Shown here in pieces: positions 744-27,397 of a stretch of 28,958 nucleotides of DNA. The position numbers were made by a program, and so were the translations under genes. This DNA comes from a virus. Under the pieces are notes generated by a model. That model was given only the letters and a program-made list of their open reading frames with translations. It had not been told where the DNA came from and searched no databases. How positions within the stretch are numbered: position 1 is the first letter of the stretch; every line of letters begins with the position of its first letter. The stretch is taken from the IMG/VR virus record IMGVR_UViG_3300017719_000121, positions 1 to 28,958 of that record. One strand, given 5' to 3'.

Positions 744-1002
744 GATGTATTTCTTTATCTATTTGTTTTATATCTGCTTCTAACTCTTTAACTTTTAATT
801 CTAGAGCTAGTATATGACCCTCTGTCCATTGCCTTTTGAGATCATATTCTAATCGTTTAACTTCTGCAGGCGGCAACTTCTTCGCCTCTTCTATATCTGA
901 TTCTAAGGTATAGTACATTCCCATTATTGTCGATGTAAAAACAACTATACTTATAATTGTTTTTAAATCTAATTTGAACTCAGTGTTTTCACCTATCTTC
1001 AT
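724..1002 (-). CDS. Small membrane-anchored coiled-coil protein (possible lysis accessory)
   Basis: 92 residues. A short N-terminal polar stretch is followed by one hydrophobic helix at about residues 14-34 (TIISIVVFTSTIMGMYYTL). A charged heptad-like coiled coil at about 36-85 follows, with a hydrophilic His/Lys tail. The topology suggests a single-pass inner-membrane protein. In a late phage operon this could be a holin, spanin-like or lysis regulator, but no family was recognised and no lysin is next to it. Its ATG overlaps the stop of the 3305-residue gene (ATGA), indicating translational coupling, and it overlaps the following gene by 20 bases. Confidence 0.7.
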   Translation of the reverse strand: MKIGENTEFKLDLKTIISIVVFTSTIMGMYYTLESDIEEAKKLPPAEVKRLEYDLKRQWTEGHILALELKVKELEADIKQIDKEIHHGNKQR

Positions 1003-4000
1003 TCTTCCATTAATTCTAAAAGTTTTTTAACTCTATCAGCTTCGCTAGATAGCTCTCTGATTTGTTTCTTAGTTAACCCTAGGCTATCTAATTTAGCTAC
1101 TTGTTCAATTTTAGTTAATTTAAAATACTTTTTGTTTTTTAATTTAAAATTTAATTTATCTATAGATTCGTCTTCTTTAATTTTATATTTAGGATCTTCT
1201 TCTAGTTTAACTATCAACTCTACTCTTTCTCTTTCACTTTTTAAAGAAGCTATTTTACCAGGCGAAACACCTAACTGTTTAAGCTTTTTATCTTGTGCGC
1301 TTTTATCCATATCATACAAAACAGGATGCTCATCTTTAAATAACTTATTCGCAGCTTTTGTTTTTATTTTGTTTTGCTCTTTGTCAAACACATCTATATC
1401 TTCTTTAGACTTCAATAAATCTTTATAAGAATAAGATCTTCCTTCTTCTTCTTTATATTTAGTTGGCTTAGTGTATGGTTCTAATTGCCACTTTGGCCAT
1501 CCTAAAAGCATAGCAATTCTTTGCCAATTTTGATTGTCAGAATCTACAGCTCCTTGAACGTTTCTTAGTTTTTGAACTAATCTGTCTAACGGGATGTTTG
1601 TAGTCGCGGCAACAACTTTAGCCATAGCTCCATATGCAGGGTTGTTTATATCGAAAGGGTCATTTGCTTCAGGACTATCCTTGTTGTAATCCCACTCCAT
1701 TAATCCTCCTCTAAACTTACTTACTTTTATATCTATAGGTGGAGCAAAATCTAACATTTTCCAAGCAGCATCTCCATACTCAGGTCGTTTTCTATTAGAT
1801 CTATCGTATATGTCTATAGCAAGATTCTTAACTGTAGAAACTATAGTTCCACCAATACCTAATCCTCTTAAAACATTGTCTACCATAGAATTCGCAGCAG
1901 TTAAACTTTTTTCTTCTAATGCACCTTCTTCGTCATCATCGCTAAACGCTAAACCAAATAAAGCACTTTGCAATGTAGTAAATATAATATTTTGTATTGC
2001 TCCGTAATATACTATTTTAGATATATTTTCTTTCCAATCACCTCTTCCATTAGCTAAATCTAATGCTGATTTTTTCATTATTCTAGAGTACTGACTAGGG
2101 GTATTAGCAAATGCAAGTAACACTTTACCTAGAGTACTAGCTTGTTGTGAAGATATTTTACTAGGGTCTGATGATTGCTGAGAAGTTTCAGCTGTTGCTT
2201 TAAAATCTTCAAAAGCTTTTTTGCTAGCTTCTTTATCACTTAAACCTTGTTTTTTATAAGTGTCAAGTCTGTTTCTATAAAATGTAGCTCCACCAGAAGC
2301 TATTGCAAAACTATCAGCAAACTGAGTTAACACAAACCCTTTACTCAATAAAGTACTTATAACACCTTTAGCTTTGTTTTTACTAGTTTTAGCTGCTTCA
2401 GATATTTCTGAGTCACTTACATTTATTTTTAAACCATTACGTCTATCTACTAAATAATCAGAGTTCATTAAAAACATGAAGTCTTTCCAAAACTGTGGTT
2501 GATTAGCAAATGCTTTACCTGCTTTCAATGGATTGTTGTCACTCCAGTTCATGAAGTTTATAGAAGATATAGTTTGTAATATAGCAGATCTAGTATTTAA
2601 GAACATTACAGTACCTACAGAATTATTTATATAATCTAAAACTCTAGATTCTAGTTTACCCATGGTACTACTTCTATTAGTACCTGTTTTCATTCTGTAT
2701 ATAGAATTTTCTAAAGCTTCTCTAAAGCTAGCTCCATAAGCAGCTTCTATTTTATTTAAGTTTTTATTAGAAAACGCTTGATCTATATTTTCATTCCATT
2801 CTTTTAAATACCTAGACCTAGTATTACTTCTTAAACCTTCTCTAAAGTCTGTAGTGATAGTACCGGCTAACCAGTCTTTACCTGGGTAGTAGTATCCATC
2901 AGATTTAGTTAACGCAACTATTTGCTGAGCAAATGTCCCTAACTCAGGATTTTCAGCAACAAAATCCCTCATGTTTTTTAAATCTCTTTTAGACAACCCA
3001 TCTACTTCTATACCTTGACTCTCCCAAGCTGTGACTCTTACGATGTCTTCAAAAGTAAAACCATCAAAAGCAACTTTCTTTAGGTTTTTAGGTATTCCTT
3101 CTAAGCTGTTTTTTAAGGCTTTAAAATCTGCTGTTAAAGTATTTTGAGCTATAGTAGCATCGTTAACACCTCTATTATAAGGTTTTATTAAAGTGTCTTG
3201 CATCCATTGCCACTGAGCATTTCCTTCTGATCCTTTACCTAAGAACGAATAAAGTAAACCTCCAAAGTCTTCTGCCGAAGCTGGTATTAAACTAAATCTC
3301 TTAACATTTCTACCTGCTGCTTTAGCCTTAACATCAGAATACTCTTTGAATGATTCTATACCTGTCTTTTCGTATATAATGTCATTCATTTTTTGATCTA
3401 CCGTTTCGCTAAACTTAATCTTAGCTTGTTGAGTTTTTGACTTAACATCTATAACACTCATTACCTTATCAACAGCATCGATGTTCCCTAAGTGATCGTC
3501 TGTAAAATAAAAATCATTATATCCTTCTGCCGCTTTATCAACCATCCAACCTGACTTAGCTAGTGGTGAGCTATCACCTAAGCCTGTTATATTTTCTAAA
3601 GGTATATCTAAACCTACTTCATCTAAAAACATTTTAATAGACTGAGCCGACTCTTGAGATCTAGCTGTTAAAACGAATACATCTTTTGTTCCTCTTACTT
3701 CTTGAATTTTCTTAGCAATATCTAATAATGGACCTGGCTTTCCATCAACAACTTTATTAAACTCTGAAAAATCCCATACAGCTCCTTCAGCTAACATAGC
3801 ATCTCCGTCTTTAGCAAACTGCTCAGCAGTTAACTTACCTTTAGTACCATCAGGCATTGTATATAATACATTGCTATTTGTTCTAGCTAACGTATCGTCA
3901 AAGTCAAACACTCTAATCTTTTTAACTGGAGCATTAGGATCACGAGCAATAGCTAACGCTTTGTCTAATAGCTCTGCCTCAATAACAGATATACCTGAAT

Positions 4001-7000
4001 TTTGATCTGATTCAGAAAACTTTACTTCACTACTGTTTATTAAGCTAGAGTCAAAGTTTTGAGTTCCTTTATCATTAAAAGTTTCACTATAGTTGACAGT
4101 GTTATTACCAACTACAGAACCATCTTTTTTAGTAAGTTCCATTATAGCTAAAACTTCATCATACCTAGTTTGAAATGGATCGTCTCCTATTCTATGCTTC
4201 ATACCCATAGAAGCTTGTTTTCCTTCAGCTCTTAGTATAGAATCTACTCCGTCAGGTAATATTATAGTGTGAAAATTATCTAACTCAGTATTGAAGTCAC
4301 TTTTGCTTTTAGCAGATGGATCTAGTAAATACTTATAAGTCAACAATGCCATATATTTAGCTGGTGTCATATGTTCTAATACATATTTATCATTTGGAGC
4401 TAAATTCAAAGACTGTTGCAAGTCAGTTCTATTTAAGGTAGGATAACCTATTAGCGAAGCTGAGGATTTAAGCGCGCCTTGCATACTTCCTGAGTCTACT
4501 GAGACCATCCATCTGGCTTCCGTAGGTGTTAATGTTATTAAATCTTTTGTTTTATTTTCAAATTCTTCTTGAGTAATCTTTTTAGCATCAAGATCTTTTT
4601 GTAATTTATTTAACTTGTTAAGATTTTGCGCTAAATCGTTTATAGTTTCTTTATATATTTTTTTATTTAATTCTCCTTCTTTAGCAATTTCATTAATAAA
4701 TTCTAATTCAGCTTTTTTATCTCCATTTAAACTTTCCCATTTCTCACTAAAATACCAGTTCTTTTTAAATACTCTACTATCCATGTTGCCTTTAGAACTT
4801 ACGTTTCCAAAATCACCTTTAGATGGCCCAACCAGCAACTTGCCATTAGCATCTTTAGCATTTATTACGTTGTTGTATAGGTCTTCTACATTTCTAAACA
4901 ATCCTGTTCTAGCAACTTTAGCATCACCAGAAACGTCTGAATCAACTAGTTTTAAACTTTTTGGAGTGCCAGTAACCTCTAAGCCAGCTAGTCCGTCTGG
5001 TCCTTGTAAACCAGGAGCAAATAATCTTATAAACTTTTCTCTACCTATTTTTATAGCTAATTTAAGAGCCATAGCTCTACCTTGATTAATACTAGTTATA
5101 CTTTTCTTATCATAATCAACACTGTTAATACCTAAAGCTAATTCTATGGCTTTATAATCAGTCTGATTTATAACTTTGTCTATTAAGGAATCCGCTATTA
5201 TATTACTTAGTTCAATCTCATTTGACCTCTTAGATTCAGCTTTCACTTGGCTTTGAAAGGTAGGTTTTAATGGTCCAGAAAAATCAGTAGCAATACGCTT
5301 CATTTCTTTATTTGTAATGTCTTCAAAGAATAGCTCAGCAGGATAAAAGTAATTTTCCATAGCGTCTCTTATAGCCGACGTTTTACCATCTTTATTTAAG
5401 AAATCTATATTAGCCAGGTTTTGTGACACCATAGATCTAAAGGTATCAGTTTTCATACCGTCTATTAACGCTTGTTTACTCTTAATATCTTTACCAGCTA
5501 AAGTCTCGCTAAACTTAATAGTATCTTGAGATCTTGATTCACCCGCTGTTTGATCTAAAACGTCTTGTAGGTTAGTTAAAACATTATCTATATACATGGT
5601 AGAAACTTCTTGTTCTGTCATACCTGTCCTTTTAGATATTTCGTTTAAGAAGTCAGGATCATTTTTAAGTTTGAATATCTCTGTCTTAGCTAATTCTTTT
5701 GCAATAGGTTGTATTAAAGACTTTTGTCTAGCTATAAGTGTAGTGTATCCACCTCTTGTAAAATATTTTTTAAAGTCATTAGGATCAGGTTTTTGAACTT
5801 CAAATATTTGCTTCCTATAATTAGTTGTTTTACCATCAGCATCTACTTTCTTTATATCTTCTCTACCTATTTCAGTTAGTTTAAATATATTAGACCAAGC
5901 TTTACTTTTAGCTTTTTGCTTTATAATATCAATAGGCATAGCTCCTATTATTTGATCCATGTTAGTTACAATAAAGTCTGTATATTTTTTAGTAGCAAAA
6001 CCTAAAGCACTTTTACTTATAGGTCCCATTTCTTCTTTAATAACTTTAGTTATTTCTTTTTCTATAGAAGATTGTATCTCTGTGTTAACCGTGTCTTGAT
6101 TAAAACCTTTTGTTATAGCAACTCTTTTTAGCTTGTCTGTTACTATTTTTCTTATTCCATCAAAAAGTTCAGGTGTCACAATAGACAAGTCCTCAAAGCT
6201 CTCTAATTGACGAGTACCTGGAGTTTCTTTATTGTCCATGTCTTCATCAAACCTACCTGCTTTAACGTCTTCTATTTGCCTAGCAGTTTCACTGTCAATA
6301 GACAAATCACCCGCAACCAAGTCATTTGGTAAATAACCTGTTATCTTCTTGTTTAACAATAAGTTTATATAAGCTTGAATAGAATCAACATTACCTTTAC
6401 CTTTTTGATAATTCTTAACAATGCCTGGTATACCTGAATTACCTGTAGCTACATCTGAAACAACATCATTAGCAACTTCATCTGACCAACCATCCCAATC
6501 AGAAGGTTTTAAAAATTGATTACCTAACCTATATCCTTTTCTTAATCTAGATGCAACTTCGTTTTTCCATAATTGACCTATTTCAAACCCTTTTTCTTTT
6601 GTAGTTAAATCACTTTCAAATATCTTACTAGTGTTTTCATATAAAGTAGGATTTTTTTCTGATAGTTTAATTTCAGAAGCAGCTATACTTTTCTCATCAG
6701 GTACAATAGATATTACTTTGCCTTTAACTTCAATGTCTGAGTTAGGTATAAACTTTTTAACAATAGCTTCCTTTTGTTCAGTTGTATATTCACTTGAGGG
6801 AAGTATTCTTTTTTCGATTATCTCCTTAACTCTTTGACTTTCTAAGTTTTTAAAACTTTTTTCTAAACCTTTAATACTAGGAGCTGTTAAAGATCCACTT
6901 TTTAATGCTTTACTTAGACCAACAAAGTATTGTAGTATTTCAGTTTCGCCGCTAAATTCTATTTGAAAACCACCAGCTTGTTTTAGCCCAGCGTTAAACG

Positions 7001-10000
7001 TTCTTCCTAATATAGCTATAGTATTATCCATTTTTTCTAGATCAATACTTGCTCCACCTTCTTCAATAAATTGAGACACTACTTCATCATAATCAATGTT
7101 ACCCTCCGAATCAAATATGTTAGCATTGTCTAACTGCATTTTACGCAGTACAGAACTTTGGCCAGTGTATTGTAGGTAATTAACTAATTGTTTACCCATC
7201 TGATTAAAAGCAGCAGGATTTAATTTAATTAAATTAGCTGATATGCCGTGAGTGATCTCATGTATACCGGTTTCTGTTCTTTTATTTTTCTTCATGTTCT
7301 CAATAGATATTATATCCGCATCTATTGGCTTCATTTTTAAACCATTTACATTACCTTTATTAATCTTTGAAATAGCTTTAGCCTTATCAGAGATCATTTT
7401 TTTTAACTCTTTCTCTGATTTCCTTTTAGCTTTTGAATCTTCTTGGTTATCAATATTTTCTTCCCTAAATCTATCAATCATAGCGTCGTACTGTACCTCG
7501 ATATAATTAACAGCTTCTTCATTAGTTTCAAAAACTTGATGATTTAAACCTAGTTCGCTCGCTATTTTTGCGTCTCTTCTAGTGTTGACCTCAATCTTTT
7601 CATCTAGCATTATATCGCTAGCGGCAGAGTTTATTTCAGCTTTAGTTGGTTTGTAACCTCTAGGTTTGTCTTTTATAATAGCATCTATCGCTGCAGCTTT
7701 TATTCTTCTATGATTTTTTTTCGTTTCACTAAAAGGTAAAGCTCTAACAGCCGCTCCAGTTAAAGCGGCCCAAGGATCTCCAAAAGTATCCGTGTTGGTG
7801 AAATCAGCTTTAGCTTGCATTATTTCCTTGTAGTCGTTCTCTAAAGCTTCTATAGCGGAGTTTTTATTTTCATCAGACATTTCTTTGTCATTCATGATAT
7901 CTATAGCTTCTTGCCTTATGTCCGCAGCATTACTTAAACTTTTAACATACTCTCTTACTACCGTAGGATCACTTATGCCTTTTTTCTTAATGTTTACTTC
8001 AGCTTGGTTTTCTGCATCAATTCTTTTAGTATTTTCTATTTGCTGCAGGTTCTGTAACTGTTCAATCTTTTTAAGATCAGCCGCTCTTTGCTCTGAGTTT
8101 AAATATTTCTTTTTCTTTTTTCTAGGTAAATTATTATACTTAGATTGTATATTTGATATTTGACGACTATACTCATTGTATTTTTTAGTAGCTTCTCTTA
8201 TAATACCAGTTTCTTTGTTTCCAGTAAAATCTTTCAAACCAAAAGCATATACAGAAGACATACCTGACATACCAGATCCCCAGGCTCCGGCAGTAAATAA
8301 AGTTTCAGTCATGTTTTCTAAAAAAGGTCTACCATCCACTAGGTTTTGTAAACCAGTAGTAAGACCTTCAGCTCCCATTTCAATAGCTGTCTCAGGTAAA
8401 ATATCTTTTGTCAAAGCGTTTTTCAACCAAGCTCTTTTTCCCATTTCTTCAGCTTCTTCTATAACTGCTTTTTTACTTAAATCAAAACCTTTAACTCTAT
8501 TAACTTGATCTCCTAAAGTTTTAGCTGTAGAAACATAAGCTAAACCTCCTTCTACTATTCCATATATAGCACCTTTCAGCAAAACTTCTGCATCTGAATA
8601 TAAATCTTTACCAGCAACAAACTCTTCGTAGTTCATGCCACTAACTTTACCACCAAAAGAATTTAAACCTATCATAGTGGAACTAGATACTCTACCTAAT
8701 GTATTTAAAGACTTACCAGTCATACCCATGCCTTTTCCAACTGCTCCACTAAGACCACCAGTCGCTATCATAGACAATATTATAGGTGCTTGTTGTGCTA
8801 CTGATTGTAAAGAATAACTAGCAAGCGATGACCAACTATCTATTTCACCAAAAGCTACATCTTCTTTAAAATTAAGAGATTGTTCATTTTTTAAAGAATT
8901 CCAAGAATTCATTAGTCCATCAACAAAGTCACCTGAAGGTTCAAAACCCATGTTTTTTACCATATGGTAAGTTGGATTTATTGTTTGAAATAATTTATAA
9001 CTCCCATAACCAACGTTAATAAGAAGATCTGCTGTCGCAATACCTAGTTGATTAACGAACTTGTGGCCATCATTATAGTTCCTTCTAATCATAGCCCAGT
9101 TTTCATCTTCCTTTTCAGACTTTAACTCAGCATCCATAAATAAGTCATAAGACTTTTCAAATGTGTTTCTCGTCTGTTCTAAGGTGTTTCTTTCCACCAT
9201 AGCGTTTTCATACAACGACACAGGTAAAAGTCTTCCATCTTTAGTTTCGTAAGCTGGAGTAACTCTTGGATCTACATCATATTTAATTAAAGGATTGTTT
9301 ATAAATTCATTTAACTCCTCTAAGTTATTTAAGCCTACCTCTAGTGTTTGGTTAAGCTTTTGTTGGCTATATTCTAAAACAGCCAACGATCTAGCTGCTC
9401 TTTTATCAGCTTTTGAACCTATTAAATCTTTTATTGAAGTCACTAGAGCAGTGGTTAAACTAGTACCTTCAACTCCTTTTTCTCCTCCTTCAATCCAGTC
9501 CTCCCATTTAGCGCTTTTTGTAGCATTCAAGTAGTTTGTTTCAGCATTTTGCCTAGCTCTATTCTCTACTTCAGTTGAATATTTATAATAACTACCAGCT
9601 TTAAATTTTAATGATTCAGGATTAAAATCCTTAACACCCATTTCTTGAGCTTCAGCTACTAACTGATTGTAAGCTTCTTCTAATTGTGCTTCACCATTTT
9701 GAGTAGTAAATAACTGCCCACCAAAACTAGTTAACTCAAAGCTTAAATCAAGATTATTATAAACATCTTTCGCATCTCGTTTATCTTTTTGAGTTAGTCC
9801 AAATATACCACCTTCTATTTTACCTCCATTTTTTATAAAAATATCTTCTTGTTCTTTCGATTTAAACGTGGGTGCATCTTTAAACAATGCAGCAACTTCA
9901 GACTCTTGACTAGAAGTAGATAGCTTTATTAAAGCTATATCATCTTCTGTTATATAGTTTTTTAAGTATTTTAAAAAATCGTTTTGAGCAGCTTTAGGTG

Positions 10001-10916
10001 ATCTTCTATTTTTATTATCAAAAGCATTTGTTACTTCACCTTCAAGAAATGAGTCTATTTCAAAAACTTCTCCATCTGGTGCTGTAACTTTTACTACATT
10101 ATTTCTCGAAGTTCCTTGGTCAACATTGCTTTGATCTTTTTTAAATGTTTCAATAGTAAAGTCTTCTAAAGCGCTTAGATTATTTAAGTAGTCTGCAAGT
10201 CCAGAAGCTCCAGTTCCAGCTGTTGATTTATCTTCTTTACCTTCTAAGGTTTTAGGCGTAAAGAGTTCTATGGGAATAATAGAATCATCTGCAACCGCGT
10301 CTTCTAGTTTAGCATCTCTAATAGCCACCATGCCTACAGCGCCTGGGACATCTACATCTTTCAAAGGAGATGGTGGTGGTTTAATCACCGACACTAAACC
10401 AGGAACCGGCTGACTTAGTTGTAGGTTTTGTTGTATTTCTGATAGTTCAGTGTCTTGTTGTTTTTGTTTTGACTTCCAGGTTTCAAATTTAACTTTTTCC
10501 TGATCCATCATAGGTAAAGACTCGTAGTCTATGTTTGGATTAGGATTCCAGTCTTCTTCCTCTTCTTCTTCTTCCACTGCTATTTCAGTAGCATTATCTC
10601 GTTTTTCTTGTTCAGAACCTTGCAATGCTTGAACGCCATAAGCATCATCAATATAACCTCTACCAGTAAACTCACCATCCAAACCTTTGCCTTGTAAACC
10701 TTCTCCACCTACAGCTACACTACCACCTGAGTGTTCATCTATCCACTTGTTTATATCATTGGTTATTGTAGGGTCATATTTTGACAAATAATCAAACATT
10801 GAAACCCTATAATTACCATCTTCTAAAAGTTTTTTATTTAGCTCTTCATTAGTTAAGGTAAAAGTATCTCCGTAAGCTTCTTTAATCTTAGCGTGAATTG
10901 GATCTATTGAAATCAT
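999..10916 (-). CDS. Giant 3305-residue virion-associated protein with zincin-like motif and HAD domain
   Basis: Probably an internal/cargo protein ejected with the DNA, by analogy of position with T7 gp16 and crAss-like giant virion proteins. Seen in order: acidic run near residue 118; hydrophobic segments near 622-645 and 700-728; Lys-rich helical region near 930-960; HEITH at 1219-1223 with an acidic YDEVVSQFIEE helix near 1275, a zincin-type metallopeptidase signature; a HAD phosphatase-like domain at about 2336-2490, with DFDDT (D2338, D2340, T2342), T2417 in VLTARS, and D2473-D2474 in FTDDHLG. A long helical C-terminal region follows (hydrophobic near 2969-2992), then a two-copy repeat at about 3198-3305. 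The motif [I/V]KFSE[T/S] recurs at F1802, F2300 and F2502. No RNA-polymerase DxDGD motif was noticed. It starts 18 bases after the 406-residue gene; the stop overlaps the next start. Catalytic activity and virion location are inferred. Confidence 0.85.
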   Translation of the reverse strand: MISIDPIHAKIKEAYGDTFTLTNEELNKKLLEDGNYRVSMFDYLSKYDPTITNDINKWIDEHSGGSVAVGGEGLQGKGLDGEFTGRGYIDDAYGVQALQGSEQEKRDNATEIAVEEEEEEEDWNPNPNIDYESLPMMDQEKVKFETWKSKQKQQDTELSEIQQNLQLSQPVPGLVSVIKPPPSPLKDVDVPGAVGMVAIRDAKLEDAVADDSIIPIELFTPKTLEGKEDKSTAGTGASGLADYLNNLSALEDFTIETFKKDQSNVDQGTSRNNVVKVTAPDGEVFEIDSFLEGEVTNAFDNKNRRSPKAAQNDFLKYLKNYITEDDIALIKLSTSSQESEVAALFKDAPTFKSKEQEDIFIKNGGKIEGGIFGLTQKDKRDAKDVYNNLDLSFELTSFGGQLFTTQNGEAQLEEAYNQLVAEAQEMGVKDFNPESLKFKAGSYYKYSTEVENRARQNAETNYLNATKSAKWEDWIEGGEKGVEGTSLTTALVTSIKDLIGSKADKRAARSLAVLEYSQQKLNQTLEVGLNNLEELNEFINNPLIKYDVDPRVTPAYETKDGRLLPVSLYENAMVERNTLEQTRNTFEKSYDLFMDAELKSEKEDENWAMIRRNYNDGHKFVNQLGIATADLLINVGYGSYKLFQTINPTYHMVKNMGFEPSGDFVDGLMNSWNSLKNEQSLNFKEDVAFGEIDSWSSLASYSLQSVAQQAPIILSMIATGGLSGAVGKGMGMTGKSLNTLGRVSSSTMIGLNSFGGKVSGMNYEEFVAGKDLYSDAEVLLKGAIYGIVEGGLAYVSTAKTLGDQVNRVKGFDLSKKAVIEEAEEMGKRAWLKNALTKDILPETAIEMGAEGLTTGLQNLVDGRPFLENMTETLFTAGAWGSGMSGMSSVYAFGLKDFTGNKETGIIREATKKYNEYSRQISNIQSKYNNLPRKKKKKYLNSEQRAADLKKIEQLQNLQQIENTKRIDAENQAEVNIKKKGISDPTVVREYVKSLSNAADIRQEAIDIMNDKEMSDENKNSAIEALENDYKEIMQAKADFTNTDTFGDPWAALTGAAVRALPFSETKKNHRRIKAAAIDAIIKDKPRGYKPTKAEINSAASDIMLDEKIEVNTRRDAKIASELGLNHQVFETNEEAVNYIEVQYDAMIDRFREENIDNQEDSKAKRKSEKELKKMISDKAKAISKINKGNVNGLKMKPIDADIISIENMKKNKRTETGIHEITHGISANLIKLNPAAFNQMGKQLVNYLQYTGQSSVLRKMQLDNANIFDSEGNIDYDEVVSQFIEEGGASIDLEKMDNTIAILGRTFNAGLKQAGGFQIEFSGETEILQYFVGLSKALKSGSLTAPSIKGLEKSFKNLESQRVKEIIEKRILPSSEYTTEQKEAIVKKFIPNSDIEVKGKVISIVPDEKSIAASEIKLSEKNPTLYENTSKIFESDLTTKEKGFEIGQLWKNEVASRLRKGYRLGNQFLKPSDWDGWSDEVANDVVSDVATGNSGIPGIVKNYQKGKGNVDSIQAYINLLLNKKITGYLPNDLVAGDLSIDSETARQIEDVKAGRFDEDMDNKETPGTRQLESFEDLSIVTPELFDGIRKIVTDKLKRVAITKGFNQDTVNTEIQSSIEKEITKVIKEEMGPISKSALGFATKKYTDFIVTNMDQIIGAMPIDIIKQKAKSKAWSNIFKLTEIGREDIKKVDADGKTTNYRKQIFEVQKPDPNDFKKYFTRGGYTTLIARQKSLIQPIAKELAKTEIFKLKNDPDFLNEISKRTGMTEQEVSTMYIDNVLTNLQDVLDQTAGESRSQDTIKFSETLAGKDIKSKQALIDGMKTDTFRSMVSQNLANIDFLNKDGKTSAIRDAMENYFYPAELFFEDITNKEMKRIATDFSGPLKPTFQSQVKAESKRSNEIELSNIIADSLIDKVINQTDYKAIELALGINSVDYDKKSITSINQGRAMALKLAIKIGREKFIRLFAPGLQGPDGLAGLEVTGTPKSLKLVDSDVSGDAKVARTGLFRNVEDLYNNVINAKDANGKLLVGPSKGDFGNVSSKGNMDSRVFKKNWYFSEKWESLNGDKKAELEFINEIAKEGELNKKIYKETINDLAQNLNKLNKLQKDLDAKKITQEEFENKTKDLITLTPTEARWMVSVDSGSMQGALKSSASLIGYPTLNRTDLQQSLNLAPNDKYVLEHMTPAKYMALLTYKYLLDPSAKSKSDFNTELDNFHTIILPDGVDSILRAEGKQASMGMKHRIGDDPFQTRYDEVLAIMELTKKDGSVVGNNTVNYSETFNDKGTQNFDSSLINSSEVKFSESDQNSGISVIEAELLDKALAIARDPNAPVKKIRVFDFDDTLARTNSNVLYTMPDGTKGKLTAEQFAKDGDAMLAEGAVWDFSEFNKVVDGKPGPLLDIAKKIQEVRGTKDVFVLTARSQESAQSIKMFLDEVGLDIPLENITGLGDSSPLAKSGWMVDKAAEGYNDFYFTDDHLGNIDAVDKVMSVIDVKSKTQQAKIKFSETVDQKMNDIIYEKTGIESFKEYSDVKAKAAGRNVKRFSLIPASAEDFGGLLYSFLGKGSEGNAQWQWMQDTLIKPYNRGVNDATIAQNTLTADFKALKNSLEGIPKNLKKVAFDGFTFEDIVRVTAWESQGIEVDGLSKRDLKNMRDFVAENPELGTFAQQIVALTKSDGYYYPGKDWLAGTITTDFREGLRSNTRSRYLKEWNENIDQAFSNKNLNKIEAAYGASFREALENSIYRMKTGTNRSSTMGKLESRVLDYINNSVGTVMFLNTRSAILQTISSINFMNWSDNNPLKAGKAFANQPQFWKDFMFLMNSDYLVDRRNGLKINVSDSEISEAAKTSKNKAKGVISTLLSKGFVLTQFADSFAIASGGATFYRNRLDTYKKQGLSDKEASKKAFEDFKATAETSQQSSDPSKISSQQASTLGKVLLAFANTPSQYSRIMKKSALDLANGRGDWKENISKIVYYGAIQNIIFTTLQSALFGLAFSDDDEEGALEEKSLTAANSMVDNVLRGLGIGGTIVSTVKNLAIDIYDRSNRKRPEYGDAAWKMLDFAPPIDIKVSKFRGGLMEWDYNKDSPEANDPFDINNPAYGAMAKVVAATTNIPLDRLVQKLRNVQGAVDSDNQNWQRIAMLLGWPKWQLEPYTKPTKYKEEEGRSYSYKDLLKSKEDIDVFDKEQNKIKTKAANKLFKDEHPVLYDMDKSAQDKKLKQLGVSPGKIASLKSERERVELIVKLEEDPKYKIKEDESIDKLNFKLKNKKYFKLTKIEQVAKLDSLGLTKKQIRELSSEADRVKKLLELMEE
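1002..1295 (-). repeat. C-terminal two-copy protein repeat inside the giant protein
   Basis: The last about 100 residues contain two related helical units about 64 residues apart: KKLKQLGVSPGKIASLKSER from residue 3210 (about 1197-1289) and AKLDSLGLTKKQIRELSSEA from residue 3274 (1002-1097). Both show LGxxxxxIxxLxSExxRV followed by a Leu/Glu-rich end. The pattern (helix, LG turn, helix, basic) resembles small SAP/helix-extension-helix units, though that assignment is only suggestive. Confidence 0.6.
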
Positions 10917-12156: not shown

Positions 12157-12915
12157 TTATCCAATTTTGTAATAGTTATCATCATCAGCATCCGCATTAA
12201 AAGCTCCAAAGCCACCTCCACTGCCGCCACTTCCGCTAGATTGCACATCTTGAAGAGCACCAAAAGCAGCTACTCCACTTGAGAGTCCACTAGTTATACC
12301 ACTCATCATAGAAGCATTACCAGCGGCATTTAAGTCTATAGCATTTTGATTGCTTTGATCCATTAAGTCAGAAGCTCTGTCTAACTTTGCTATATCTCTT
12401 GTTTCTTGTCTATCAAAAGCGTTTACTTCTTCAGCTATAGCTAATTGTTCTAGGTCCATTTGTTGTTTCAACCTGTTTGCTTCACCGGTTATTTTCAATT
12501 TTTGATTAGCTGCTTCTTGATTTTCTATACTTGCAGCAACCTTAGCTTTTCCTTCTGCAGCGGCTCTAGCTAAAGCTGTTGCTCCACCAGCTGAAGTACC
12601 ACTTTTGTTAATAGCGTCTAACGTGTTAGCTAAGTCTTGATCTTGCTGTTCTACTTGCATTTCAACACCTTTCATAGCAACACCCATTTGTTCATATGGA
12701 TTAAATACTTGACTCTTGAGATCTCTTATTTTTTGAGATTGATCAATTACGGGTGGACGCATTTGTTCTAACTCTCTGAGTCTTTTTTCTTGCCTTCTTG
12801 CTTTACCAGCTTCTAGACGCGCTGCTTTCTTTTGCTGAGATCCTGAAATTATACCTGATGTAATGCCTGTAGCCGCGGCAATACTTCCCGTTACTATAGC
12901 TAAAATTGCTGACAT
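12157..12915 (-). CDS. Ala/Gln-rich coiled-coil internal virion protein (T7 gp14-like by position)
   Basis: 252 residues. The N-terminus (about 3-25, ILAIVTGSIAAATGITSGII) is a small-residue hydrophobic helix that could insert in a membrane. Residues about 28-190 are a long Ala/Gln/Glu/Lys-rich helical region with no Cys. The C-terminus is Gly/Ser-rich (SSGSGGSGGGFGAF) and then acidic. This build, a hydrophobic N-terminus, long coil and flexible tail, is typical of podovirus core proteins that are ejected and line the envelope channel. It precedes the 406-residue and giant proteins, reinforcing that reading. No sequence-family match is claimed. Confidence 0.68.
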   Translation of the reverse strand: MSAILAIVTGSIAAATGITSGIISGSQQKKAARLEAGKARRQEKRLRELEQMRPPVIDQSQKIRDLKSQVFNPYEQMGVAMKGVEMQVEQQDQDLANTLDAINKSGTSAGGATALARAAAEGKAKVAASIENQEAANQKLKITGEANRLKQQMDLEQLAIAEEVNAFDRQETRDIAKLDRASDLMDQSNQNAIDLNAAGNASMMSGITSGLSSGVAAFGALQDVQSSGSGGSGGGFGAFNADADDDNYYKIG

Positions 12916-13402: not shown

Positions 13403-15142
13403 TTATGAGGACATAACATAGTTGCTAGCTACAGAGAATAATTCTTTCATACCTCCTGGTTGAGTTTCATTATCAGTAGATATTTTTACAGTGGCAAAAT
13501 ATCCTTTAATACCTGACATTTGCGCTCCAAAAATTATTTCACCTGGAGCTTGTGTAGAGTTATTGATAAGATTAGCAACGTATCTGTTTTCTTTTCTATC
13601 AAAACCTCCATAATAAGTAACTTGATCTACTTTGTATTGACCCATGTTGTAGCTTAAAACCGGTTTAGTAGAGTCTCTATATTGATTACTATCTACATAT
13701 GTAAAAGGATCTGAAAGTGCTCCTGAAACTTGCAAGTCAGGATCCACACCCGTGTAATCAGAGGCAAAGAAATCCATTTTCCAACCATTACTACCTTCGT
13801 AGCTTATAGTGTTGAAATTTTTAACTAAAACAGGTTGTGGATTAAATACAAAAGTAACACTTGCAGAAGCTCTTGGTTCATTGTAAAACACGCCTCTAGT
13901 GTTGTTATCTGGTATAGTTTGATAGTAATGCTCGTATATGTTACTATCAACAAAACTATAGTATATATTTTTAGAACTACCTAAGAAAGAAGGTTTATAA
14001 CTAAAAAAGCTAGTCCATCCCGATACCGTTTCATCAAAAGATACTGTAGCATAGTCTGTATTTTTAGAAATATACCTAGGCTTTTCTTGTAGTGACAAAG
14101 TATACATGGCGTTATGTATATCCCAACCTCCTGGTGCTTGACCCTTATATAACTTAGTAAATCTAATTTCAGTGTTATTATAAGTACCTGACAATAAAAT
14201 AGGACTTGAAAACGTTACATTAAACTTATCTTGAACAGCAGTAGATGTAACATCTGTAACGAAACCTCCTGAAAAGCCTTCGTAAAAAACTTGTGATCCT
14301 ATATCCACAGAGCATATGTTAGCTGCTGATATAGTTATTGTATCTGTATTACCTGTTCCTTCAAACTCTGGAACCCTAAAAACACTAACATCGCTTAGGT
14401 ACTCGCTTGAAACTTTCTGTAATTCGTCTCTAAAATAATCACGCATACCATACATGCTTATTTCAGTTATACCATCTCTAGAAAGCCTTAAAACAGCAGC
14501 TCGGTCACGATCTATAAAGTACTTTCTAAAACCATAAACAGCAAACGATTCTGGATTTGTGCTTATGCCATATTCACCTAAATAACCTACAGGTTGTCCC
14601 AAAAATTTAACGCTAGCTGATTCTACAGAACCTTGATCGCCTGAATATAATGCGTTCTTGTTTATTAAAACTTTGTTTACTTTCTTCTCTTGGAATACTA
14701 TAAGATTAGTATCTTCTGTATAAAGTTTTTGAATAGTACCATTTAAAGGGTCTAAATCTTTTATTATAGCTGCACCAATAGAAAATACATTTGTTTCATT
14801 AAAACCAGTTCTTGAGTTAATTAGACCTGAGTATATTAAACTACTAGATCTATCCACTCTCCTTGGATTGTCGTCAACAACATAAGCTCTAACACCTAAA
14901 GATAGACCAGTGTTGTTAAAACCACCTTTATATCTAGACTCTTCTATGTAGAAGTTTTGATAGCCAGTCTTAGGAGTTCCTTGAGTACCGCTAGTGCCAA
15001 AAGGGAAAGGTATGTTTTCATAACCCTTTGGGTTCCAAGGTAAACCAGGCCAAGAACCTTGGTCATTAGTTGTTGAAGTACTATTAACAACCTTCTTTAA
15101 CCAAAAAGAATTAAAATATTTTACCTCTATTGTTGCTGCCAT
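13403..15142 (-). CDS. Large tail protein, muzzle/nozzle-like, 579 residues
   Basis: 579 residues, beta-rich and nearly Cys-free. The segments YIEESRYKGGFNNTGLSLGV, SSLIYSGLINSRTGFNETN, LDPLNGTIQKLYTEDTNLIV and NPESFAVYGFRKYFIDRDRA, followed by AVLRLSRDGITEISMYGMRD, match from memory a conserved tail protein of uncultured marine podovirus-like phages. The repeated short strands with D-G turns suggest a beta-propeller or tail-tube (T7 gp12-like) fold. It directly follows the 1325-residue tail protein with a 30-base gap that contains one copy of the TAACAAGTGA motif. It may form one assembly with that neighbour. ATG at 15142 is the first in frame. Confidence 0.72.
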   Translation of the reverse strand: MAATIEVKYFNSFWLKKVVNSTSTTNDQGSWPGLPWNPKGYENIPFPFGTSGTQGTPKTGYQNFYIEESRYKGGFNNTGLSLGVRAYVVDDNPRRVDRSSSLIYSGLINSRTGFNETNVFSIGAAIIKDLDPLNGTIQKLYTEDTNLIVFQEKKVNKVLINKNALYSGDQGSVESASVKFLGQPVGYLGEYGISTNPESFAVYGFRKYFIDRDRAAVLRLSRDGITEISMYGMRDYFRDELQKVSSEYLSDVSVFRVPEFEGTGNTDTITISAANICSVDIGSQVFYEGFSGGFVTDVTSTAVQDKFNVTFSSPILLSGTYNNTEIRFTKLYKGQAPGGWDIHNAMYTLSLQEKPRYISKNTDYATVSFDETVSGWTSFFSYKPSFLGSSKNIYYSFVDSNIYEHYYQTIPDNNTRGVFYNEPRASASVTFVFNPQPVLVKNFNTISYEGSNGWKMDFFASDYTGVDPDLQVSGALSDPFTYVDSNQYRDSTKPVLSYNMGQYKVDQVTYYGGFDRKENRYVANLINNSTQAPGEIIFGAQMSGIKGYFATVKISTDNETQPGGMKELFSVASNYVMSS

Positions 15143-22334: not shown

Positions 22335-23801
22335 TTAAGCTGTAGCTTTGAATAACACGAAGTTATTAGCTGCTTGAGTGATTAAACATCTTTCAGATAA
22401 GAAATGTACTTGCATTGCATCTAAAGAAGAAGTATAAGCACCACCAACAGAACCAGTGATCCAGTTTTTCATTCTTCTATCATCAGCTTCAGAAGCTCTA
22501 TATCTTACGTGTAAGAAAGGTCTTCTAATGTTTGATCCAAGCATTTGATCGTATACTGTAGATGTTCCAGCAGGAATCATCACACCATCGATATCTTTTG
22601 TAAGTCCACGAGTAGTCGCATCATTTAGATATTTCCAGTCAGTTTTGTAGAAGTCATAAGAACCTCTTCTAAAACCACCAAATCCAAAGTTTAGCGCCAT
22701 TTCAGCTTCGTTATCAAATAAACCGTAAGATGCAGCTGTAGTAGAAGCATAACCTCCACCAGCTTGTGCAGCGATCATATCATCAAAATCAAGAGCAGTA
22801 GCTCTGTTTAAGAATAACATGTTTTCTTCAATAGCACCTTGCTTATCTAATTGTTTAAGGATAGCATCAAAATCTCCTAATGCACCAGCTCCAGGAGCAG
22901 CAGCACCAGCAAAATTATTCCATACTAAACCTCTTTCTTCAATAGCAGCAAACATACCTTGTGTACCTTTTGGTGCAACAGTAGCTGTAAATTGACCATT
23001 AGTACCCATGTCATCTAAAGCACCTGAACCAGTAGCAGCAAGTTCACCTTCAACTGATACCATTTCAAGGTAATCTTCAAATCTTAGTCTTGTTTCAGAC
23101 TCAGCTTTTAAATACCATAAGTATCCAGATGTTCCATCTTCAGTTGAAACTTCAACCCAACCAATTTGAGCAGCATCAGAACCTGATACTTCGAATTGAT
23201 CTTTGATAATAACAGGAGAGTTAGTATACGATTTTAGTTGTGGATTAATTGATCCACCCATTCCGTTTACTCCTTTTGGAAATTCAGAACCATAAACAAA
23301 TAGTTTGATGCTAGTAGAATCAACCGCTCCAAAAACAGCGTCTAAATCTGCTTCTGTATAAGGAAGGCAAGTAATAACTTGACCACTAACGTCAGAAACT
23401 ATACATTTTACAGTTTTAAATCCATCAGAAACAACTACAGTGTTATTTACTCTTACAGCATTGTTTTCACCTGTCGCAAGAGTTAAATTGTTAGTACTTG
23501 CAGTACCTGCACTTGATGTTCTAGATACACCTTCATAAGCAATGTGTAATCTATTTTGTTCAGACCAAACAACTTGGTCAGATGTCATTGGCATTTCAGC
23601 GCCAACCATTCTCAAGAAACCAGACAAAGTCCTGTTTCCGTATCTTTCTACTTCTTGCTCATAAAGCTCAGGTAGATATTGTTGTGCCCATTGGCCAGCA
23701 TCGTTAAAATCGATGTAGTTAGTAGGTTGTGTAACCTTCTTTGGCATTGGCGTAATAGATGCTGGAAAAGCTCCAGCTGGTGAATTGTCTACAAATCCCA
23801 T
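22335..23801 (-). CDS. Major capsid protein
   Basis: 488 residues, the usual size for a HK97-fold capsid of crAss-like or marine podoviruses. Near the N-terminus it has QYLPELYEQEVERYGNRTLS followed by GFLRMVGAEMPMTSDQVVW and SEQNRLHIAYEG, a helix plus E-loop-like start I recall from this capsid family. Later segments include VEVSTEDGTSGYLWYLKAES and a conserved-looking FGFGGFRRGSYDFYKTDWKY. Its C-terminus (VHFLSERCLITQAANNFVLF) is a compact strand pair. It lies between a scaffold-like protein and a terminator, the classic capsid position, and has no maturation-protease neighbour. Assignment is by length, order and motif memory; the fold itself cannot be seen here. Confidence 0.8.
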   Translation of the reverse strand: MGFVDNSPAGAFPASITPMPKKVTQPTNYIDFNDAGQWAQQYLPELYEQEVERYGNRTLSGFLRMVGAEMPMTSDQVVWSEQNRLHIAYEGVSRTSSAGTASTNNLTLATGENNAVRVNNTVVVSDGFKTVKCIVSDVSGQVITCLPYTEADLDAVFGAVDSTSIKLFVYGSEFPKGVNGMGGSINPQLKSYTNSPVIIKDQFEVSGSDAAQIGWVEVSTEDGTSGYLWYLKAESETRLRFEDYLEMVSVEGELAATGSGALDDMGTNGQFTATVAPKGTQGMFAAIEERGLVWNNFAGAAAPGAGALGDFDAILKQLDKQGAIEENMLFLNRATALDFDDMIAAQAGGGYASTTAASYGLFDNEAEMALNFGFGGFRRGSYDFYKTDWKYLNDATTRGLTKDIDGVMIPAGTSTVYDQMLGSNIRRPFLHVRYRASEADDRRMKNWITGSVGGAYTSSLDAMQVHFLSERCLITQAANNFVLFKATA

Positions 23802-24976: not shown

Positions 24977-27397
24977 CTATGATGGTGCAAACTGCTCTAA
25001 TCCCATACCTCCTAAAGTATCATTACCTTGAGATTCAAAATTAATAGGCACACCGTCATTTTTTCTTTGTGAAATCATTTCACTTTGTTGTGTTGCTTGT
25101 AATTTAGTTCTTTTATCTTTTCTATCTTCTATTTCTTTTTCTTTCTGCTGTGTTGCTCCAACTTGCGCTTTAGCCAACTGCATGTTATATTGAAACTCTT
25201 GTTCCATTAACTGCTGTTTTATTTGAGCTTCGTTTTGTAATCTTTGTATTTCAAATTGTGATTTAGCTTGTTCTATTTGAACCTTAGATTCTGTTAAAGC
25301 TTGTTGTTTTTGCACTTCAAATAAAGCTGTTTGTTCAGCTACTTGCGCATTAGCAGCAGCTTGAGCTTGCATATTTTGTTGAGCAATCTGTTGATCTCTT
25401 GCAGCTTTTTCCTTTCTTTTCTTTTTAAGAAACTCATTAGCTAGTTTTAGATTTTTAATATTTCTTATATCAATAGCATCTTCTAAGTCTATAGAACCTT
25501 GCTGTAAAGAGGCTTGTATGTTTTGTTCTAACATAGCTTTATCTTCTTCGTCAGGTTCAAGCTCTATAAATATTCCAAAATCATGTAGATTTACAGCTGA
25601 TAGCTCATCTAAAGTTCCTACGTTAAAGTTGGATATACTGTCTCTTAAAGCTGTTTTAGTTAAAGGAAACATTAAAGCATCATTAACTCTACAAGATACA
25701 TTTTCACAAGTTTTTAGCGTTAAGTATAAGCTTGCTTGCAATATATGTCTAGTTGCAGTGTTTGAGTTAGCTGCTGCCATTTTTTGTAAACCAACTAAAG
25801 CGTTTTTATCAGGAGTACTTCCATCTCTGGCTTCATTAAGTCCGGTCACGTCTCTTATCATTTGTAAGTAATACTGATACGTTTGAATAAGAGATGCTAT
25901 TTTAGCTTGACCATTAGAACTGTTTAATTCCTGTATAGGAACTTTACCTCTATTCATTTCACCGTCTTGAGTTAGAGATCTACCTACAATAGAACCTGTT
26001 TGAAAATACATATTCAAAGCCTCTTGCGGATTGTAATTAGTTCCATTACCAAGATCAACCTCAGCTAGTCCATCCATATCTAAATAAACACCATCAGGGA
26101 CCATTCTAGATAATACTTGCTGTAGTTTTAAATGAGTTAACTGTATCATATCTGCAAAACCAGTTACTCTTGACACTAACGATTCTATACGTCCCTTGTA
26201 CATTCTAGGAGCGCATATGTTATAATTCATATTTACTTTAGTAGTATTAGCAGCTGGTCTTGTCATGTTTTCAGACATACCCCAAGATAACATCATAGGA
26301 TGTCCTAAGACTTTAGCGCCTGTATATAAAACTTCAATAGTTCTAGATACTCTTTTATATCCTTGAGCATCTTCAGGTGGTATAAAAGTATCTTGCTTTT
26401 CTAATGTTTTCTCTAAACCAGTAGCTCCTTCTTTTATCTTAAACACTTGATCCATGAAGGTCTTGTATTCAAAGTATAAAACTTGAACTGTGTTTTGGTC
26501 TTGTCTTCCGTTCCAGTTTCTAGTATACTCAGAATTTCCTTGATACTTTTCTAAGTCTTCTACTTGAGCAGCGTTTAAGCTTGGAAATTGTTTCTTTACT
26601 TCTGGTATTGTTAAACTTTTTACTTCACCTACGTAATATAGATCTTGAAAATTAGGATCGTCTGTATAGGACCACACAAGCGTTGATGGATCAACGTAAT
26701 CTAAAACAATACCTTCAGATACATTGAAATTAGTTTTTACAGCTCCTATACCTAAAACCGTTAAGTCGTAGTTAACTCTTTTTCTAATAAAATCGTATTT
26801 GTTTTTATCTAATACTTGGTTTATAAGCTCTTCTTCAGCTATTTCAATAGACTGTTTGTAACTCAATTGCATATGAGCTGGTAGATCTGCTACATCTTCT
26901 ACTGTTCTAGCTTCACCTGTAGATTTAGTTAGATCTTGATCTTCTCCCCATTCAGCTTTAACAGCTTCAATATACTGCTTAAGCTGTATATCTTCCATAA
27001 TTCTTTGAGCGTACTCAGTTCTTTTACGTACTGATTCTGGGTCTTGTGCAAACGTTTTTACTTCATAACTTCTTTGAGACATACCATTTACAACTATATC
27101 TACAAACTTGCTTAATATAGGTACTGGTTTCCAGTCTAAGTTTAAATAAGATAAATCTCCATTTATTGATAGTTCATCTTTATACTTTTGTACAGGTTGT
27201 TCTCCTCTAGCGTATAGACGTAAGTAATGAAAATTGTTATAGTTTGTTTGAAATCTATAACCATTACTTCTATAGTTTCTAAACCATTCACCTTCAATAG
27301 CTCTTCCTACTGCCAGTCCGTATTCTTCAGTAGCTTTCTCAGCCATAGGTACTACCTGATCTGGGAATGTGCTATTACTATTAGTATAAATCTGCAT
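24977..27397 (-). CDS. Portal protein
   Basis: 806 residues, long for a portal and close to crAss-like portals (about 800). It forms the dodecameric ring at the DNA-packaging vertex. Visible elements: LRLYARGEQPVQKYKDELS and SYLNLDWKPVPILSKFVDI at residues 84-101, typical of the portal wing start. Next come a helical stem-like region, then KVNMNYNICAPRMYKGRIES and MIRDVTGLNEARDGSTPDKN, a motif common to portals just before the crown helix. From about 660 to 765 the chain is a Gln/Glu/Ala-rich coiled coil (crown/barrel), and the last 30 residues are polar. It starts directly on the terminase stop (TAGATG). Placement between terminase and scaffold supports the call. Confidence 0.85.
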   Translation of the reverse strand: MQIYTNSNSTFPDQVVPMAEKATEEYGLAVGRAIEGEWFRNYRSNGYRFQTNYNNFHYLRLYARGEQPVQKYKDELSINGDLSYLNLDWKPVPILSKFVDIVVNGMSQRSYEVKTFAQDPESVRKRTEYAQRIMEDIQLKQYIEAVKAEWGEDQDLTKSTGEARTVEDVADLPAHMQLSYKQSIEIAEEELINQVLDKNKYDFIRKRVNYDLTVLGIGAVKTNFNVSEGIVLDYVDPSTLVWSYTDDPNFQDLYYVGEVKSLTIPEVKKQFPSLNAAQVEDLEKYQGNSEYTRNWNGRQDQNTVQVLYFEYKTFMDQVFKIKEGATGLEKTLEKQDTFIPPEDAQGYKRVSRTIEVLYTGAKVLGHPMMLSWGMSENMTRPAANTTKVNMNYNICAPRMYKGRIESLVSRVTGFADMIQLTHLKLQQVLSRMVPDGVYLDMDGLAEVDLGNGTNYNPQEALNMYFQTGSIVGRSLTQDGEMNRGKVPIQELNSSNGQAKIASLIQTYQYYLQMIRDVTGLNEARDGSTPDKNALVGLQKMAAANSNTATRHILQASLYLTLKTCENVSCRVNDALMFPLTKTALRDSISNFNVGTLDELSAVNLHDFGIFIELEPDEEDKAMLEQNIQASLQQGSIDLEDAIDIRNIKNLKLANEFLKKKRKEKAARDQQIAQQNMQAQAAANAQVAEQTALFEVQKQQALTESKVQIEQAKSQFEIQRLQNEAQIKQQLMEQEFQYNMQLAKAQVGATQQKEKEIEDRKDKRTKLQATQQSEMISQRKNDGVPINFESQGNDTLGGMGLEQFAPS

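Follow-up and report, generated by a model that had tools for sequence, protein, structure and literature searches.

What is a viral protein of 3305 residues that joins a protease-type motif to a set of phosphatase motifs in one chain, and at which stage of infection would it act? It is encoded in a 28.9-kb IMG/VR record (28,958 nucleotides, analysed in full and called the window below) of a phage known here from sequence alone. Its gene lies at 999-10916 on the minus strand, as a single open frame of 3305 codons with an ATG start. The sequence-only reading that drew attention to this gene gave its coordinates and four motifs exactly (HEITH at residues 1219-1223, DFDDT at 2338, VLTAR at 2415 and DDH at 2473). 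A crAss-related, 'polyvalent'-class reading is adopted here because the N-terminal module is homologous to virion proteins annotated from MS/MS data and because zincin and HAD catalytic sites follow it. The giant protein is probably packaged in the virion and ejected as a multi-enzyme chain, in which the zincin would process the protein itself and the HAD domain would heal nucleic-acid ends.

Genomic position and probable virion residence

The genes that place the locus, and the N-terminal module of the giant protein, are as follows.

27398..28897, minus strand: terminase large subunit, 5' end beyond the window (phrog_6681, E 9.1e-111)
24977..27397, minus strand: portal protein (phrog_6547, E 9.8e-142)
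22335..23801, minus strand: major capsid protein (phrog_13704, E 3e-95)
13403..15142, minus strand: muzzle-like tail protein with the crassvirus muzzle C-terminal domain (PF25729, E 4.7e-7, above cut-off)
12157..12915, minus strand: possible T7 gp14-like internal virion protein, a weak match (PF24072, E 0.0046, below cut-off)
999..10916, minus strand: predicted giant polyvalent-type ejection (cargo) protein of 3305 aa, single frame, last gene of the virion module
8184..9107, minus strand: N-terminal module, residues 604-911, putative membrane or ejection part (iterated profile and hydrophobic scan)

By phrog and Pfam matches, the genes of the virion module of a crAss-like or related podovirus stand in order (TerL, portal, MCP, ring proteins, muzzle). 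The order TerL, portal, scaffold, MCP, ring, muzzle and giant gene is shared with Cellulophaga phages phi40:1 and phi18:3, and the giant gene ends the module at the place that such genes have in Elemovirus, Pervagoviridae and Pachyviridae phages. The nearest reference phages belong to these three groups and not to the gut crassviruses, and the source phage is best explained as a crAss-related podovirus of marine Bacteroidota. Matches in bacterial genomes fall on short MAG contigs with mixed labels (Flavobacteriaceae, Cryomorphaceae, Saprospiraceae, also Aliivibrio and one archaeon); they look like binned phage contigs, and a Bacteroidota host is a loose hint from them.

Searches of the full protein against Pfam (E up to 1) and NCBIfam matched no family, and PDB sequence searches with the zincin, HAD and C-terminal profiles gave nothing significant. 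Since tblastn of the whole protein and its pieces found no match among GenBank phages, the cultured homologues were reached by synteny and profiles. The iterated profile of the N-terminal module, which has two hydrophobic Gly-rich stretches (712-730 and 778-796), matches phi40:1 gp101 (E 8.8e-17, in the first round), Gundel_74, elemoE gp18 and phi18:3 gp123. Of these, phi40:1 gp101 (1691 aa) and phi18:3 gp123 (1935 aa), from Pervagoviridae and Pachyviridae, are annotated as virion proteins by 'experimental MS/MS proteomics'. They occupy the same genome position and have the homologous N-terminal module, but lack HExxH and HAD, and the C-terminal module is not detected in them. Elemovirus gp18 (3694 aa) and Gundel_74 of a Tenacibaculum phage (2482 aa) also share the position and the N-terminal module; elemoE gp18 shares the zincin domain (a HEIFH domain matched by the zincin profile, E 1.1e-13) and Gundel_74 part of the C-terminal module (profile E 2.8e-12), while both have other domains and no HAD. 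By homology and synteny with the MS/MS-annotated Cellulophaga phage proteins, the giant protein is very probably carried in the virion, where the sequence-only reading had placed it from gene position.

The zincin and HAD active sites

Relatives were gathered solely by the C-terminal module, which occurs in more than 500 IMG/VR contigs, and the comparison set consists of 79 long proteins including that of the window. Judged by this shared module, the same kind of protein is present in hundreds of ocean viruses. The domains downstream of the N-terminal module are these.

7047..7559, minus strand: zincin-like metallopeptidase domain, residues ~1120-1290 (78-sequence alignment, AF2 model)
7248..7262, minus strand: HEITH, residues 1219-1223, two predicted Zn ligands and general base (motif scan, alignment)
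7083..7085, minus strand: E1278, predicted to be the third Zn ligand; the model places it on the second C-terminal helix (invariant in 78/78)
4047..4739, minus strand: central conserved domain, approximately residues 2060-2290, boundaries approximate (E2181-H2182 in 75/78), possibly a nuclease
3432..3968, minus strand: Pnkp-like HAD phosphatase domain, residues 2317-2495 (63-member alignment, phrog_415, AF2 model)
3891..3905, minus strand: HAD motif I, DFDDT, 2338-2342 (alignment)
3660..3674, minus strand: HAD motif II, VLTAR, 2415-2419 (alignment)
3555..3557, minus strand: HAD motif III, K2454 (invariant in 63/63)
3495..3500, minus strand: HAD motif IV, D2473-D2474 (invariant in 63/63)
1467..3404, minus strand: all-helical C-terminal module, residues 2505-3150, better conserved than any other part (45-73% identity, 70 sequences)

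HEITH is the sole HExxH of the window protein, and exactly one HExxH is found in 78 of the 79 proteins, where composition shuffles predict 0.05 for the whole set. E1278, which lies 59 residues past the first His and played no part in selection, is invariant in all 78 sequences, as are the H, E and H of the motif, across an alignment whose mean column identity is 14%. By this conservation HEITH and the downstream E1278 complete a zincin site, and the motif that the sequence-only reading noted is not a chance occurrence. The structure model that the same reading proposed as a check bears it out in part: the AF2 model (pLDDT 77.5) has a zincin-compatible core of helix, strand, strand, HExxH helix and E helix, with HExxH on helix 97-113 and E1278 at the start of helix 157-166, and the support from fold searches is weaker. 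A zincin is absent from the nine Foldseek rows of the model; with VIA-align, matches exceeding 120 residues are all to chains of the lethal-factor type (M34; Z 4.0-4.7, aligned over 128-152 residues), weak matches that occur amid helical coincidences. None of the Pfam zincin models is reached by the domain. Together, alignment and model indicate a real zincin domain with predicted proteolytic activity.

In the HAD domain, D2338, D2340, T2417, K2454, D2473 and D2474 are each present in 63/63 aligned members with motifs I-IV in order, motifs III and IV not being among the selection criteria. The AF2 model has a clear Rossmann-like HAD core, and HAD phosphatases fill nearly all its top fold rows (Z 7-10). 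The HAD set noted earlier is thus catalytically complete, and the comparison with PNKP suggested with it is the one that the folds return: the top three matches are Pnkp1 4xru (Z 10.1, 128 residues, 3.1 A) and T4 Pnkp 1ltq (Z 10.0) and 2ia5 (Z 9.6), all within the phosphatase part of these enzymes. Phrog_415, 'polynucleotide kinase', is matched by 60 of the 63 members (best E 1.4e-9); PNK3P is matched by two of the 63 only, and T4 PseT gives a short, weak sequence match (33 columns, probability 52). The domain is best matched, in its modelled fold, by the Pnkp 3'-phosphatase, and the shared fold leaves the substrate unfixed. Like T4 Pnkp and bacterial Pnkp1 it has the HAD core and four motifs, but it is embedded in a giant virion protein, and the window protein lacks a kinase. 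In three relatives (L037, L061 and L075) an AAA_33/zeta-type P-loop kinase (E 1e-12 to 4e-14) shares the chain with the HAD, inserted inside it, whereas it is N-terminal to the phosphatase in T4 Pnkp and Pnkp1.

It is a substantial, though lesser, possibility that the domain acts as a nucleotide or sugar phosphatase, removing metabolic or signalling nucleotides, instead of as a nucleic-acid 3'-phosphatase. HAD enzymes are diverse in substrate, and weak matches are found to DUF2608 (47/63), acid phosphatase and phosphoheptose-type families. Folds of the Nir2, NagD and AphA types follow closely in the fold list, the lead of Pnkp over Nir2 and NagD being only about 1 Z unit, and zeta-type kinases can act on UDP-sugars. 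The Pnkp phosphatase domains nevertheless take the first three places, the polynucleotide kinase PHROG is matched across nearly the whole alignment, and the kinase insertion recreates a kinase-phosphatase pair. A complete RNA-repair pathway is weakened by the lack of an RNA ligase (PF09414) among 17 contigs of relatives (52-72 kb) and two reference phages. A fold row likening the HAD plus C-terminal model to the T7 ejectosome had a probability of 0.02 and was disregarded.

Module swapping and the border motif

The HAD and the helical C-terminal module are best supported, on present alignments, as a near-constant pair: independent HAD matches are joined to the module in 78 of 80 cases, and the remaining two stop at a contig end. 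Around this pair modules are exchanged. About ten relatives have lost the HAD, and in L011, L020, L021 and L072 a domain of 160 aa is inserted between the HAD and the C-terminal module; a DUF6934-like domain or the kinase is present in relatives. A short motif, [IVLA][KR][FY]S[KER] (IKFSE), recurs in the window protein.

5505..5519, minus strand: IKFSE, copy 1, residues 1800-1804 (motif scan)
4011..4025, minus strand: VKFSE, copy 2, residues 2298-2302, upstream HAD border (motif scan)
3405..3419, minus strand: IKFSE, copy 3, residues 2500-2504, downstream HAD border (motif scan)

The motif is nearly confined to the part downstream of the zincin and to module borders, and two window copies flank the HAD. 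In shuffles that ignore shared descent, 3.0 copies are expected between zincin and HAD and 0.1 at the HAD/C-terminal border, where 20 and 24 (the latter in 77 proteins) are observed; before the zincin the count is 0 against 2.6, and inside the C-terminal module 1 against 2.4. In 36 further proteins the corresponding values are 9 against 1.05, 19 against 0.07, 0 against 1.07 and 0 against 1.18. About half of the relatives, and the cultured ones, lack the motif. L063, the sole full-length frame without HExxH, also lacks the strict motif, a single case.

The distribution of the motif suggests either a protease processing site or a domain-shuffling seam. If it is a seam or a mere linker, the same ejected protein could carry its zincin as an injected protease effector against host proteins, an alternative that is rather unlikely. 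Swapping, as described, is clear; the insert of L011 lies between two copies of KFSET where its insert-free sibling L015 has one, and in the window two of the copies are identical at 16 of the 18 bases encoding IKFSET, which a DNA seam could explain. Host-protein targets are also allowed for such domains by Iyer et al. (PMC5512222). Against it, no enrichment extends to the part before the zincin, where the motif does not occur although swapping is strong there too, and precedents from N4 and P1 point to self-acting roles, if not decisively.

It is very unlikely that zincin and HAD are non-catalytic structural relics in a protein that serves only as ejection tunnel or internal core component. 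The cultured homologues phi40:1, phi18:3 and Panino are viable without both motifs, which places the essential role in the shared modules, but all catalytic residues are strictly invariant in 63-78 divergent sequences of low overall identity. Least probable is that the protein belongs with the virion RNA polymerases, such as N4 gp50 or the crAss RNAP proteins. These resemble it in size, place, HExxH and large helical C-terminal part (PMC12633501; PMC10172136), but the identity is rejected since neither the DxDGD motif nor a match to RNAP families was found in the window protein.

A probable polyvalent-type cargo protein and its putative role

A prediction from 2017 holds that polyvalent proteins are injected and that their own zincins process them (Iyer et al.; PMC5512222). 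Those with a zincin-like MPTase resemble the window protein in very large size, several unrelated enzyme domains, predicted packaging and injection, the zincin as a hub domain and modules swapped between relatives. With zincin and HAD the window protein likewise has domains of disparate predicted activity in one chain, but it gives no Pfam match to domains of the class, not all of which Pfam may hold. In N4 virion RNA polymerase gp50 (3500 aa), an HExxH domain precedes a large helical part that has no known homologues (PMC12633501); the window protein is alike as a giant, probably ejected protein with HExxH, but has no RNA polymerase and no sequence match to gp50. Since zincins joined to enzymes are known from the polyvalent theme and from N4, the combination is not unusual in itself, and the sequence-only reading overstated its novelty. 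The unusual features are a HAD resembling Pnkp, the insertion of a kinase into this HAD in some relatives, and the placing of IKFSE at the borders of modules. A weapon against host defence or a maturation factor, as the sequence-only reading had it, would be a putative role. The main text of PMC5512222 gives no cut sites, does not mention a HAD/Pnkp-type phosphatase (no match to 'haloacid' or 'phosphatase') and likewise does not describe a border motif.

In the preferred reading as an ejected multi-enzyme protein, the giant protein would exit the capsid early and cross the envelope aided by its hydrophobic N-terminal module. Once inside, the zincin would act mainly on its own chain, releasing modules at IKFSE-type borders. 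The released HAD might then act on nucleic-acid ends as a 3'-phosphatase, as the phosphatase half of T4 Pnkp does, and perhaps also as a cyclic phosphodiesterase; at the onset of infection it would heal RNA or DNA ends that host nucleases have cut. A more specific and quite speculative version is a self-dissecting cargo, in which the zincin cuts a portable IKFS(E/K) signal, the Pnkp-type phosphatase (with a kinase in some relatives) repairs tRNA or DNA ends before expression of phage genes begins, and domains are added between copies of the signal.

The locus represents a large marine family (>500 contigs) in which both active sites are strictly conserved and a concrete candidate border signal is at hand. 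A Pnkp-like phosphatase in the virion would shift end repair to the earliest stage of infection, when host defences that cut RNA or DNA act.

Gene setting and probable virion residence

The giant protein is encoded by one open frame, and it contains each of the motifs claimed by the sequence-only reading: HEITH at residue 1219, DFDDT at 2338, VLTAR at 2415 and DDH at 2473. The window covers the whole IMG/VR record of 28,958 bases. TerL is present only as its C-terminal part (within 24977-28897, the phrog_6681 match beginning at position 249), and therefore the record is a fragment with a cut inside TerL. According to family matches, a podoviral virion module lies upstream of the giant gene on the same strand, comprising TerL, portal, a scaffold-like gene, MCP, ring-like proteins, one long structural protein, a protein having a crassvirus muzzle C-terminal domain and a T7 gp14-like gene (weak match).

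Features of the window
999-10916, minus strand: giant-protein gene, 3305 residues
12917-13399: small protein, a good match to families of short tail fibres and adhesins (phrog_12032, E 4.9e-24)

By TerL, portal and MCP, the nearest known phages are an uncultured Manatee Spring phage, Maribacter phage Panino, Elemovirus (Flavobacterium) and the Cellulophaga phages phi38:1/phi40:1 and phi18:3-type (Pervagoviridae, Pachyviridae); Tenacibaculum phage Gundel is among the nearest by TerL and portal. A large to giant gene adjoins the tail genes in every nearest phage examined (1829 aa in Panino, 3694 in elemoE, 1691 in phi40:1, 1935 in phi18:3, 2482 in Gundel and 3859 in the Manatee phage). The Manatee protein (L008:741-12320, MW202828) has two HEFGH motifs without a HAD, and its deposited name, 'reticulocyte binding/rhoptry protein', is surely wrong.

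The phi40:1 and phi18:3 giant genes are labelled 'annotation based on experimental MS/MS proteomics analysis'. An iterated profile of window residues 601-920 reaches phi40:1 gp101 in the first round (E 8.8e-17), and elemoE, Gundel and phi18:3 gp123 in later rounds. Since the N-terminal module is homologous to the MS/MS-annotated proteins of phi40:1 and phi18:3 and the gene position is shared, we infer that the window protein resides in the virion, and the earlier proposal that it rides there is supported by homology and synteny. Of the three stretches of the protein with the highest hydrophobicity, two lie in this module.

Zincin-like and HAD domains

Among 79 long proteins, counting that of the window together with those of its relatives, 78 contain exactly one HExxH, versus 0.05 expected overall. 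In an alignment of 78 sequences around it, with 14% mean column identity, the Glu 59 residues past the first His is invariant. The upstream strand pattern (G-h-x-h ... I-h-h-N) and the helix (E/D)-E-h-h-T-x-F-(S/A)-(E/D) agree with the description of polyvalent MPTase domains (PMC5512222), and the profile also matches the HEIFH domain of elemoE gp18 (E 1.1e-13). The site is very likely genuine. A zincin fold is likely: the AlphaFold model (pLDDT 77.5) has both catalytic helices in place and its VIA-align matches longer than 120 residues are lethal-factor-type (M34) chains only (Z 4.0-4.7), although no zincin was among the Foldseek matches.

The HAD set, previously described as complete-looking, proves to be invariant at every catalytic position in 63 sequences, for whose selection motifs I and II, but not III and IV, were used. 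Sixty of the 63 match phrog_415 (polynucleotide kinase). The suggested comparison with PNKP-like HADs holds at the level of structure, the model being matched best by Pnkp1 (4xru, Z 10.1) and T4 Pnkp (1ltq, Z 10.0; 2ia5, Z 9.6) in the phosphatase half of these chains; direct sequence comparison with T4 PseT gives a weak match. In three relatives, about 200 additional residues between motifs I and II contain a P-loop, GGPG[SA]GK[ST], and match AAA_33 (E 4e-14 to 1e-12) and zeta toxin. Because kinase and Pnkp-like phosphatase there share one chain, the sequences favour, but do not prove, a part in end healing. A search for RNA ligase in 17 larger contigs of relatives and in two reference phages detected none. 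Four other relatives (L053, L058, L085 and L087) have another insert between motifs I and II, of 46 residues and unlike the kinase.

Domains inserted in relatives (contig handle:coordinates)
L037:8807-10054; L061:8813-10060; L075:8798-10054: AAA_33/zeta-toxin type P-loop kinase in HAD
L011:9440-10024; L020:9428-10012; L072:9377-9964; also L021: domain of about 160 residues between HAD and C-terminal module

C-terminal module and border motif

The C-terminal module, all-helical in the model, is encoded in at least 537 stretches of IMG/VR, of which 80 were kept; it is 45-73% identical between relatives and window, in proteins of about 2100 to 3700 residues. A separate HAD-based search gave 80 loci, 78 joined to this module and two stopping at the contig end; the two collections share some members. 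Seven relatives (L006, L046, L060, L066, L080, L082 and L086) lack the HAD motifs while keeping zincin and C-terminal module, and are mostly shorter (about 2100-2300 residues), except L080 (2773) and L006, truncated by the contig end. A central domain (window 4047-4739, residues about 2060-2290) has an EHxxPA-like motif, E2181-H2182 in 75 of 78 relatives, with little else conserved, and may be a third enzyme, for instance a nuclease of HNH-like type.

The window protein has three copies of the pentapeptide motif [IVLA][KR][FY]S[KER], one at 1800 and two, at 2298 and 2500, that flank the HAD (2317-2495). In a set of 77 proteins the motif exceeds expectation in the region from zincin to HAD (20 versus 3.0 expected) and at the HAD/C-terminal border (24 versus 0.1), but neither before the zincin (0 versus 2.6) nor inside the C-terminal module (1 versus 2.4). 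The expectations come from shuffles that ignore kinship, so that the junction count is partly one ancestral site, and the scattered sites between zincin and HAD are more independent evidence. The distribution recurs in 36 further proteins, filtered so that none repeats a member of the first set exactly over its last 300 residues; as the motif was spotted by eye before testing, the first statistics are exploratory and this set is a partial replication only. In L011, the inserted domain of 160 residues lies between two KFSET copies, whereas a single copy is present in its sibling L015, which lacks the insert. This domain, DUF6934-like below the cut-off in L020 and L072, resembles by eye a GNAT-type phage domain. 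The border motif may be a cleavage site or a recombination seam.

Relation to polyvalent proteins and proposed action

The window protein would function like polyvalent proteins and probably belongs to their class. The class, with the zincin as its commonest domain, is already known (PMC5512222); in the papers compared, neither a Pnkp-type HAD in such a protein (PMC5512222) nor a HAD-inserted kinase or a portable border motif was found.

From the directly supported sequence, conservation, HAD fold and homology to MS/MS-annotated virion proteins, we infer a course of ejection and processing, a substrate and a benefit. The giant protein would be packaged in the particle, ejected early and pass the tail partly unfolded, as has been proposed for crassvirus cargo (PMC10172136). 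The N-terminal module might aid membrane passage, after which the zincin would process the protein. The HAD thus set free would heal 3' ends, a role modelled on T4, where Pnkp and RNA ligase counter tRNA cutting by host nucleases (T4 annotation; PMC2610378).
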